DNA of 37,640 nucleotides from Deltaproteobacteria bacterium. Lineage in GTDB: Bacteria > Desulfobacterota > GWC2-55-46 > UBA9637. The position numbers were made by a program, and so were the translations under genes. Location: positions 1-37,640 of the forward strand of contig JACRNJ010000008.1 in the NCBI GenBank assembly GCA_016219285.1, in the 5' to 3' direction. Under the pieces are notes generated by a model. It ran no database searches. It was not told where the DNA came from and worked only from the letters and a program-made list of their open reading frames with translations. Shown in pieces: positions 4,586 to 32,797 of the stretch. Every line of letters starts with the position of its first letter. The first letter of the stretch is position 1.

Positions 4586-4811
4586 GTTGACGCTCAAAAA
4601 TTGCACAGATGCAAGGCGGTTGTAGTTTGCCGATTTATCGGCGCTTTTAAAAACGCCTAATTAATCGGGCAGCTACGGGTATGTTGACCCTTGACAAATC
4701 TGTGGCTTGTCAAAGGCAAGCCCTTGGCTTTTGCCAAGAACAGCTTTGTCAAGGGTTGAGCGCAGAAACCGCAGCGACAACGCAAGCAGATAGGCACTTT
4801 TCAGCGTTAAC
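4586..4811. repeat. Palindromic composite repeat between pycA and pycB (copy E)
   Basis: Terminal inverted repeats GTTGACGCTCAAAA (4586-4599) and TTTTCAGCGTTAAC (4798-4811) match at 12 of 14. Inside are nested palindromes: GTAGTTTGCC (4622) with GGGCAGCTAC (4667-4676), enclosing hairpins GCCGATTTATCGGC and GGCG...CGCC; and a perfect 12-bp pair ACCCTTGACAAA (4687-4698) / TTTGTCAAGGGT (4745-4756) enclosing CTTGGC-TTTT-GCCAAG. The first palindrome recurs at 17.7 kb and the CCCTTGACA palindromes recur at 32.5 kb. No coding potential is evident; it looks like a non-autonomous mobile or structural element lying within the pyc transcription unit. Confidence 0.75.
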
Positions 4812-7659: not shown

Positions 7660-7679
7660 AGCGGGGGAGAAGCTTGTCT

Positions 7680-7720
7680 GTAAAATAGCTAGTAAAAATC
7701 TTACCGTTTTACAAACCTGC
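7680..7720. repeat. Degenerate copy of the GTAAAATAGC hairpin (copy A)
   Basis: GTAAAATAGC...GTTTTAC followed by AAACCTGC matches the left hairpin and first core arm of the palindrome islands at 26971 and 32420, with a diverged loop. Only this left part is present. Confidence 0.6.
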
Positions 7721-7755
7721 TTGCAATATCCAAAAAGATTAAATATAATTTAAAC

Positions 7756-8457
7756 ATGACCGAAGAATCACTTTGTCTTTTATGCCACTGCCGGATTAAG
7801 GAAAACACCCTGTTTTCCAACCTTACCGATGAACAGCTTGAAATCTTCAAACATGCTGTTACCACATCATTACATAAGAAAAAAGATGTAATATTTGTAG
7901 AAGGCGGACCATGCCCAGGTTTTTATGTAGTAAAATCCGGAAGGGTGAAACTCATAAAAACCGCAAGAGATGGCAAGGAACAGATTATAAAGATACTCCA
8001 ACCTGGAGAGCTTCTTGGCATGGAAACATTTTATAACGGCAAGAGGTACGGCAACACCGCAATGGCAATGGATGACTGCGAACTCTGCTTCATAGAAAAA
8101 AATGCATTTTTCAGGATAATTGGAGAACACCCCTCTATCGCAAAAAAGATAATAATAGCCTTAAGCAAGGACCTTGACAACGCTTATAGTAAGATAGGCA
8201 GTATGGGTCTTATGACAGCAAGGGAAAAGATGGCTCATCTTCTTTATACCTTATCAAAGGAATATGGTTTTACGGAAAATGGAAAGATAAAGCTAAACCT
8301 CTCACTTTCAAGGCTTGAAATAGCAGAGCTTTTAGGCATAACCCAGGAAACGGCCATACGTCTTTTAAAAAGCTTTAAGGAAGATGGTGTCATTGATATA
8401 AAAAGAAAAGAGATTATTATAAAATCCATTGCCAAGTTGGAGGCGCTGGGTGAGTAA
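7756..8457 (+). CDS. Crp/Fnr-family transcriptional regulator
   Basis: A 233-residue DNA-binding regulator. Residues ~20-140 form the cyclic-nucleotide-binding-like beta-barrel (IFVEGGPCPGFYVVKSGRVKL...GELLGMETF), followed by the dimerisation helix. Residues ~150-225 are a Crp-type winged helix-turn-helix (LSRLEIAELLGITQETAIRLLKSFKEDGVI). Three cysteines near the start (C7, C10, C12; CLLCHC) recall the cysteine-rich N-terminus of Fnr-type sensors, but the spacing differs from classical Fnr and there is no obvious matching central cysteine, so cluster binding is uncertain. The E-SR pattern of Fnr/Crp recognition helices appears here as TQETAIR. It is transcribed away from neighbouring tRNA genes; the target genes cannot be told from the window. 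Confidence 0.9.
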   Translation: MTEESLCLLCHCRIKENTLFSNLTDEQLEIFKHAVTTSLHKKKDVIFVEGGPCPGFYVVKSGRVKLIKTARDGKEQIIKILQPGELLGMETFYNGKRYGNTAMAMDDCELCFIEKNAFFRIIGEHPSIAKKIIIALSKDLDNAYSKIGSMGLMTAREKMAHLLYTLSKEYGFTENGKIKLNLSLSRLEIAELLGITQETAIRLLKSFKEDGVIDIKRKEIIIKSIAKLEALGE

Positions 8458-8465
8458 ACAGAACA

Positions 8466-8528
8466 GTTGTTAGTTTCTAGTAAAAGCCTTTTTACTTCTT
8501 ACCACTACCCACTTACCACTCATCACTG
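8466..8528. repeat. Heptad-period tract
   Basis: 7-bp-period sequence TTACTTC TTACCAC TACCCAC TTACCAC TCATCAC between the regulator and the tRNA-Arg pair. The related complementary phase GGCAGTG GTCAGTG ATGAGTG occurs at ~8712-8735 on the other side of the tRNAs. Confidence 0.6.
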
Positions 8529-8536
8529 TTTTTAAA

Positions 8537-8612
8537 TGGTGCGCCTGAGAGGATTTGAACCTCTGGCCCTCAGCTCCGGAGGCTGATGCTCTATCCACTG
8601 AGCTACAGGCGC
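8537..8612 (-). tRNA. tRNA-Arg (CCG)
   Basis: A complete cloverleaf with encoded CCA. The acceptor GCGCCTG pairs with the 3' end, and the anticodon loop CTCCGGA between TCAGC/GCTGA gives anticodon CCG. It sits directly downstream (6 bp) of a second Arg tRNA, so the two are probably co-transcribed. Confidence 0.95.
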
Positions 8613-8618
8613 AATCCG

Positions 8619-8692
8619 CGCGCCCGGCAGGAGTCGAACCTGCGACCTTCGGATTCGAAGTCCGTCGCTCTATCCGGCTGAGCTACGGGCGC
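8619..8692 (-). tRNA. tRNA-Arg (TCG)
   Basis: A complete cloverleaf. The acceptor GCGCCCG, T arm with GGTTCGACTCC and anticodon loop TTCGAAT give anticodon TCG. The 3' CCA is not encoded (CGG follows the discriminator), unlike the other complete tRNAs here. Confidence 0.93.
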
Positions 8693-8811
8693 AATGAAAT
8701 ACAGTAATTAATGGGCAGTGGTCAGTGATGAGTGAAAACTAAAAATATCTTTAAACTAACACAGATCTCTAGCAGGATGCCAGGTGCATGGTTTGGCCAA
8801 AATCTGCCACT

Positions 8812-8862
8812 GAAAGCATCTGGCAAGTTTTCTCAAAAATCAATGTGCTATTTTGGGACCAT
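8812..8862. repeat. Degenerate copy of the palindrome-island right end (copy B)
   Basis: TGGCAAGTTTTCTCAAAAATC...GCTATTTTGGG corresponds to the right end of the islands at 27120-27154 and 32733-32766 (GCAGGTTTCCCCAAAAATC...CTATTTTTGGG). The 8693-8878 gap otherwise shows only heptad-like sequence. Confidence 0.5.
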
Positions 8863-17693: not shown

Positions 17694-17773
17694 TTGTAGT
17701 CTGCCGATTTATCGGCGGTTTTAAAATACGCCCATGGGGCGCCCAACATAAGGTTGGGTCGGGCAAACTACAG
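17694..17773. repeat. Palindromic repeat (copy F)
   Basis: GTAGTCTGCC (17696-17705) pairs with GGGCAAACTAC (17761-17771). Nested hairpins inside are GCCGATTTATCGGC, GGCGG...CGCC and CCCAAC-ATAAG-GTTGGG. The first 35 bp align closely with the 4622-4657 part of copy E; the loop is different. Confidence 0.7.
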
Positions 17774-26763: not shown

Positions 26764-26818
26764 TTTGGGTTTAGATTTCGGATTTCAACTCCCAACTCCA
26801 AACTCACAACCCCAAACT
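26764..26818. repeat. Heptad tract inside the riboswitch expression platform
   Basis: GATTTCG GATTTCA ACTCCCA ACTCCAA ACTCACA ACCCCAA lies between the TPP aptamer and its terminator, lengthening the expression platform. Confidence 0.65.
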
Positions 26819-26824
26819 GTTATA

Positions 26825-26922
26825 ACGCCGCTTCCCTACGCCGGTATTACCCGGATCAGGTTGTTAGGGTCTACCCCGATTACATCGGAGGACTCTCAGC
26901 CTTTATGGCTCCCCTAGCACAA
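26825..26922 (-). promoter_or_regulatory. TPP riboswitch (THI element)
   Basis: The aptamer is complete: GCTAGGGGAGCC, GGCTGAGAGTCC, a variable P3 stem (TCCGATGTAATCGGGGT), AACCTGATCCGGGTAATACC and GGCGTAGGGAAGC. All conserved thi-box blocks are in order. It reads into the HydG-like/thiS/thiG/lgt/thiE/thiC genes. TPP binding should stabilise P1 and favour the downstream terminator, shutting the operon off when thiamin is plentiful. Confidence 0.96.
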
Positions 26923-26970
26923 GATAAAATTTATCAGGGCATTACACTGAAGTCAAGCCTGAATTGCTTC

Positions 26971-27154
26971 CGTAAAATAGCGATTGAAGCACTCGCTATT
27001 TTACAAACCTGCGATTTGCCTGCCATACTTCGTTATCGGCCAATTTTTACTCCTCACCGTATCGGTGAATATACGGCTCGTCGTAAAAATTGTCCGCTGC
27101 CTTGTCTGGCAGGCAACTTGCAGGTTTCCCCAAAAATCAATGTCTATTTTTGGG
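26971..27154. repeat. Nested palindrome island (copy C, intact)
   Basis: Left hairpin GTAAAATAGCGA...TCGCTATTTTAC (26972-27004). The core arms AAACCTGC + TTGCCTGCCA (27005-27025) pair with TGGCAGGCAA + GCAGGTTT (27107-27127) and enclose CAATTTTTAC (27041-27050) / GTAAAAATTG (27083-27092), which in turn enclose CACCG-TAT-CGGTG or the alternative CCGTAT...ATACGG. Right hairpin CCCAAAAAT...ATTTTTGGG (27129-27154). The 26923-27259 gap has no gene; this island fills it. Confidence 0.85.
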
Positions 27155-32336: not shown

Positions 32337-32419
32337 GCGCTTAATCCCCGTTAGAAATTTTGAAGAAAGAATTCACTCTATCACCTAATATAATCATTAG
32401 CATGACAAATTTTGAATCC

Positions 32420-32766
32420 GTAAAATAGCGATTAAAAACCTCGCTATTTTACATCTTCCACCCTTGACAAATTATAATTTGTCAAGGGTCCACTTGCAAT
32501 CGCTTCGCAGCAAGTGGAGCCAGCCGATTTGCCTGCTATACTTCGTTATCGACCAATTTTTGTTCCTCACCGTATCGGTGAACATACGGCTCGTCTCAAA
32601 GAACACACCCCTTTAGTCCCCTATCGAGAGGGGATTTAGGGGTGTGTTGTCTAACAGCCAACTTGCCCTTGACAGGTGAAACGTCTGTCAAGGGCTTGCC
32701 CTTGACTAAACTAAAGTTTTGTCAAGGGCTTGCAGGTTTCCCCAAAAATCAATGTCTATTTTTGGG
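32420..32766. repeat. Nested palindrome island with further palindromes inserted (copy D)
   Basis: It has the same skeleton as copy C: GTAAAATAGCGA...TCGCTATTTTAC (32420-32452), GATTTGCCTGC, TACTTCGTTATCG, CAATTTTT, the CACCGTATCGGTG block, CAACTTG, GCAGGTTTCC and the CCCAAAAAT hairpin. Into it are set a perfect 30-bp palindrome ACCCTTGACAAATTA/TAATTTGTCAAGGGT (32460-32489), CCACTTGC...GCAAGTGG, a long imperfect AACACACCCC...GGGGTGTGTT palindrome (32601-32649), and two GCCCTTGAC...GTCAAGGGC hairpins. It fills the 460-bp gap between pheS and rplT; no gene is seen there. Confidence 0.85.
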
Positions 32767-32797
32767 TTGAATTATATAAGTGCCGTTAATATAGATT

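Follow-up and report, generated by a model that had tools for sequence, protein, structure and literature searches.

The palindromic island at positions 26970-27154 is very probably a non-autonomous DNA transposon of the MITE type, moved in trans by a target-duplicating (DDE-like) transposase, and not a REP/IS200 unit. It lies within the window, by which we mean the whole stretch of 37,640 nucleotides that was analyzed, and it combines terminal inverted repeats and target-site duplication with multiple copies, short length and non-coding sequence. A preliminary description of this DNA had suggested a non-autonomous element moved by a REP/IS200-type transposase; the non-autonomous mobile element was borne out, while the proposed mover conflicts with the 5-6 bp target duplications and the empty site presented below. 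The element was not found described in the open-access literature, and the family, its phylum-wide structured core and the micro-palindromes are new here.

Ends, target duplications and copies of the element

The boundaries of the island (copy 1, canonical 185-bp form, 26970-27154, plus strand) were set by comparing 71 copies of this multi-copy family, which moves the left edge one base outward from the 26971 first given. Its terminal inverted repeats, CCGTAAAATAGCGATT on the left (26970-26985, plus strand) and CCCAAAAATAGACATT on the right (27139-27154, read on the minus strand), are imperfect, and each belongs to its own hairpin. DNA folding placed the left hairpin at 26972-27004 and the right hairpin at 27129-27154, with the nested quasi-palindromic core AAACCTGC...GCAGGTTT and its conserved internal loops between them (27005-27127, plus strand; 146.5 bits against the core covariance model, with covariation). 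Folded as DNA, copy 1 reached -50.9 kcal/mol compared with -19.6 ± 3.1 in dinucleotide shuffles (z -10.1), in agreement with the order of left hairpin, nested core and right hairpin first reported. The element has no coding capacity: a 109-aa mechanical ORF crossing copy 1 begins and ends outside it, variants measure 139-349 bp, and length differences of a single base pair would shift any reading frame. Copy 1 is flanked by a tRNA-Pro on one side and, on the other, by a TPP riboswitch that precedes a radical-SAM/BATS gene. In two relatives (L160, L159) the riboswitch region corresponding to 26816-26925 holds palindromes, where the window has a short hairpin only.

The outer ends common to all copies, CCGTAAAATAGCGATT...AATGTCTATTTTTGGG, are imperfect inverted repeats of one another. 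Exact 5-6 bp direct repeats were found immediately outside 36/71 copies, where shuffled flank pairs gave an expectation of 0.7; when a single mismatch or a displacement by one base was tolerated, duplications were present at 57 of the 71 compared with 6.7 by shuffling. These 71 are the copies with distinct flanks and are not all independent, since at least one pair (L006/L056) represents the same insertion in two species. The second copy in the window (349 bp, 32418-32766, plus strand; fold z -12.6) confirms the recurrence of the skeleton that had been noted there. It sits within the rplT-pheS operon, as identified by Pfam, splitting rplT from pheS, and is bounded by TTGAAT on the left (32412-32417) and on the right (32767-32772). 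A relative, G007, retains the empty allele ACAAATTTTGAATTGTGTAA with a single TTGAAT, whereas the window has ACAAATTTTGAAT-element-TTGAATTATATAA. Counted against the MITE reading are the failure to find an autonomous relative with these ends among the loci examined and the absence of an exact flanking duplication at copy 1. The element is missing from the copy 1 site in relative G004, yet about 100 bp alongside it is also unaligned, so this is not a clean empty site.

Related pieces had also been reported at 7680 and 8812. Sequence comparison showed these to be present, but as degenerate fragments of a left end (7672-7713, also given as 7676-7713) and a right end (8820-8858). A Crp/FNR-type regulator gene and two tRNA-Arg genes lie between the two (7676-8858). 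A composite transposon spanning both fragments was considered; a direct repeat was not seen by eye and they are regarded as remnants.

Far from being limited to the copies first noted, the family gave 105 BLAST matches in its own genome (2.28 Mb) and 32 cores by a covariance model of the core, the search that the preliminary description had proposed. All ten order relatives carried the element (3-51 cores each), and 48 matching stretches were found in named groundwater Deltaproteobacteria MAGs, e.g. GWC2_42_11, GWF2_42_12 and NC_groundwater_1906. In another family of the class, one genome (G016) had about 46 core matches; its 174-175 bp element shares the architecture with diverged hairpins, and exact 5-bp duplications (TTTAA, CTAAG, ATGTA) were present at 3/5 copies. 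At two loci, element sequence continues into apparent transposase genes named by eye, the right part into the start of an IS4-like gene (L019) and the core into an IS256-type gene (L010).

Elements with other interiors, measuring 102 bp (L136), 106 bp (L102) and 227 bp (L140), had these ends and 5-6 bp duplications too, and near-empty elements with these ends and 5-bp duplications measured 22 bp (L138), 28 bp (L141, L144) and 37 bp (L127). Because elements of 22-227 bp share ends and duplications, some with quite different interiors, it is the ends which define the unit. The smallest (22-37 bp) may be mobile or collapsed remnants. In the mechanism we propose, a transposase supplied in trans would recognize the ends (about 11-17 bp, CC[CG]NAAAATAG..ATT), each presented in a hairpin, would excise or copy the MITE and join it to staggered target cuts, and fill-in of these cuts would generate the 5-6 bp duplications.

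Palindromes inserted into copy 2

The nesting and extra length of copy 2 arise because small palindromes (the CCCTTGAC..GTCAAGGG micro-family, 28-30 bp, 4-bp duplications) have been inserted into the MITE. This micro-family, CCCTTGACA...TGTCAAGGG (also CCCTTGAC...GTCAAGGG), ranges from 28 to 83 bp and has three members in copy 2. The insertions comprise a 28-bp palindrome CCCTTGACAAATTATAATTTGTCAAGGG (32461-32488) with the duplication TCCA, and palindromes of 29 bp (32666-32694) and 30 bp (32699-32728) of the CCCTTGACA micro-family, each with the duplication CTTG. A 47-bp palindrome, AACACACCCC...GGGGTGTGTT (32602-32648), replaces part of one core arm, a substitution seen in many copies, and the left arm, which differs from the canonical one, holds a palindrome CCACTTGC...GCAAGTGG (32490-32517). 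Across the DNA examined, 4-bp duplications accompanied micro-family members in 22/26 cases; shuffling alone gives 7.4, as in many cases the insertion lies at one common site within the MITE. Free-standing sites are better evidence, and these include a 68-bp member in the window (4688-4755, TTGA) and members elsewhere with TCAA (L145), TAAA (L005), CAAA (L011) and CAAG (L021). Smaller palindromic elements would thus enter the MITE and add nesting, after which the composite would spread.

A REP-like palindrome beginning TTGTAGTTTGCCGATTTATCGGCG occurs at 4622-4676 and 17694-17726. The first of these ends in CTAC, giving GTAG...CTAC as in RAYT-type REPs.

Structure and distribution of the core

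Covariation was assessed in an alignment of 16 diverse cores, three of them from outside the order. Thirty-three cells were altered on both sides of a pair compared with a shuffled mean of 11.8; the shuffle leaves relatedness in, so that these counts support structure but do not by themselves prove selection. Of the cells, 96.3% were paired, compared with 31-44% when partners were slid. Near-invariant mismatches and internal loops (GATTT/AACTT, ATACTTCGTT, GCCTCGTCTG) interrupt the stems, and the T.C and G.T mismatches and unpaired internal loops were unchanged in 16/16 cores. The constrained architecture proposed in the preliminary description therefore stands, with compensatory changes present in the arms. 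The internal switch it had proposed, CACCG/CGGTG versus CCGTAT/ATACGG, proved not to be conserved: the CGTAT/ATACG stem is retained in all 16 aligned cores, one-base changes aside, whereas the CACCG/CGGTG alternative is absent from class-level copies and from the L053/L099 types.

We interpret the core as a structured quasi-palindromic cassette whose arms would be kept paired, and whose mismatches and loops would be held fixed, by selection on the folded single strand. This strand is more likely DNA than RNA, since varying pairs interchange C-G, T-A and G-C with almost no G-U intermediates. An alternative is that the arms only look compensated, the palindromes having been homogenized by intrastrand template switching during replication with no structural selection. 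At locus L059, GATTT is changed to AAGTT, making this part of the arms perfectly complementary, and L039 carries an apparent inverted copy of one half. Template switching does seem to correct arms, with L059 resembling such an event, and part of the compensation could come from it rather than from selection. As the whole explanation it is unlikely, though to be taken seriously: the invariant mismatches argue against homogenization alone, which should erase them, and loop motifs outlast stem changes across the phylum.

By covariance model the core was found in 16/63 class genomes and in 18/395 phylum genomes, often in multiple copies, the weakest matches (E near 1e-4 to 1e-3) being less certain. 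Cores across the phylum have altered stems and retain motifs such as CGTT, CTCCTC.ACGTA and GCCTTG. One genome (G030) carries the core about 20 times; the MITE terminal repeats were absent from the 13 copies inspected and no duplications were seen. The core is therefore separable from the MITE ends and is probably older than them. When carriage on phages or plasmids was looked for, only one diverged, distant core homologue turned up, on a plasmid of Trichlorobacter lovleyi, where annotated genes flank it.

That the core functions as a structured RNA (an sRNA or cis-regulatory element) whose spread is secondary is improbable. Compensatory changes with conserved loops and homologues throughout the phylum would fit such a function, and copy 2, between rplT and pheS, would be included in any transcript of that operon, but the occurrence is sporadic and multi-copy, a constant gene neighbour was not noticed, Rfam gave zero matches on the island and core, G-U intermediates are few, and target duplications accompany the element.

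The transposase and comparison with known systems

An autonomous parent with the MITE ends was not found among the DDE_Tnp_1 and DDE_Tnp_1_4 loci and end-pattern places examined. The DDE_Tnp_1 loci checked had different ends or none, and DDE_Tnp_1_4 gave a single match, in G009. With respect to Y1 transposases, the preliminary description had pointed to a RAYT or HUH gene; Y1 genes gave 8 matches in the element's own genome and were barely associated with it. At E 0.001, Y1 matches were absent from three core-bearing genomes (G222, G252, G334), and Y1 genes are therefore unnecessary for core multiplicity. A further phylum relative (G257) has 28 Y1_Tnp matches; these are fragments, several of which lie at the ends of contigs, the pattern that assembly breaks in a multi-copy IS200-type element would produce.

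Single-strand transposition by Y1/HUH enzymes leaves no 5-6 bp target duplication, and the REP/IS200 reading fails for the whole element because such duplications are present. That the island is a REP/REPIN-like unit which a RAYT or an IS200/IS605-type Y1 transposase moves in single-stranded form is thus highly improbable: both ends are hairpins, Y1 genes are present in the genome, lone core copies lie within 1.5 kb of Y1 genes at L113 and L237, and the core alone, in lineages such as G030, could still move so, but the duplications and empty site refute it for the MITE as a whole, and just 3/38 Y1 loci had core matches nearby, one of them weak.

Bacterial MITEs include Correia/NEMIS, ERIC, RUP and Nezha. 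Like these, the element is short and non-coding, with terminal inverted repeats, target duplication, many intergenic copies and no transposase of its own. It is unlike them in having 5-6 bp duplications rather than TA, terminal repeats each within its own hairpin, and a class-wide to phylum-wide structured core with other palindromic elements nested inside. The core also resembles integron attC and other folded single-strand recombination sites, being a quasi-palindrome whose stems vary and whose unpaired bases are conserved. The attC boxes are RYYYAAC / GTTRRRY, and these were not seen by eye at the element's ends. With REPINs and RAYT-associated REP doublets (PMC3116915) the element shares short dispersed hairpins forming a larger palindrome and non-autonomy; it differs from them in its target duplications, in showing no clear RAYT association and in ends unlike the 16-mer REP pairs of that study. 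Within the same broad bacterial group, dispersed, intergenic, partly palindromic multicopy nucleotide sequences have been described for Geobacter metallireducens (PMC2700814) and also for Pelobacter carbinolicus (PMC3543383), and some of these families are read there as regulator sites or RNAs; the likeness drawn here is one of general description.

A more speculative extension, which we consider unlikely, is that the core is a folded single-strand substrate for recombination or mobility, ancient and phylum-wide, with its own recognizing enzyme, and that both in this order and in G016 a transposon with terminal inverted repeats and target-site duplications has captured it; on this view the 22-37 bp palindromes with duplications are themselves mobile.

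Under the MITE reading, what looked like a curious palindrome is a mobile element defined by its boundaries, target duplications and empty site, and complex nested palindromes in bacteria can grow as small palindromic elements insert one after another. Selection on folded single-stranded DNA can be tested on the core, whose stems vary freely and whose mismatches and loops have been preserved throughout a phylum. Should the 22-37 bp palindromes be mobile as such, they would be among the smallest transposable elements described, and current models needing two separated transposase sites would have to account for them.
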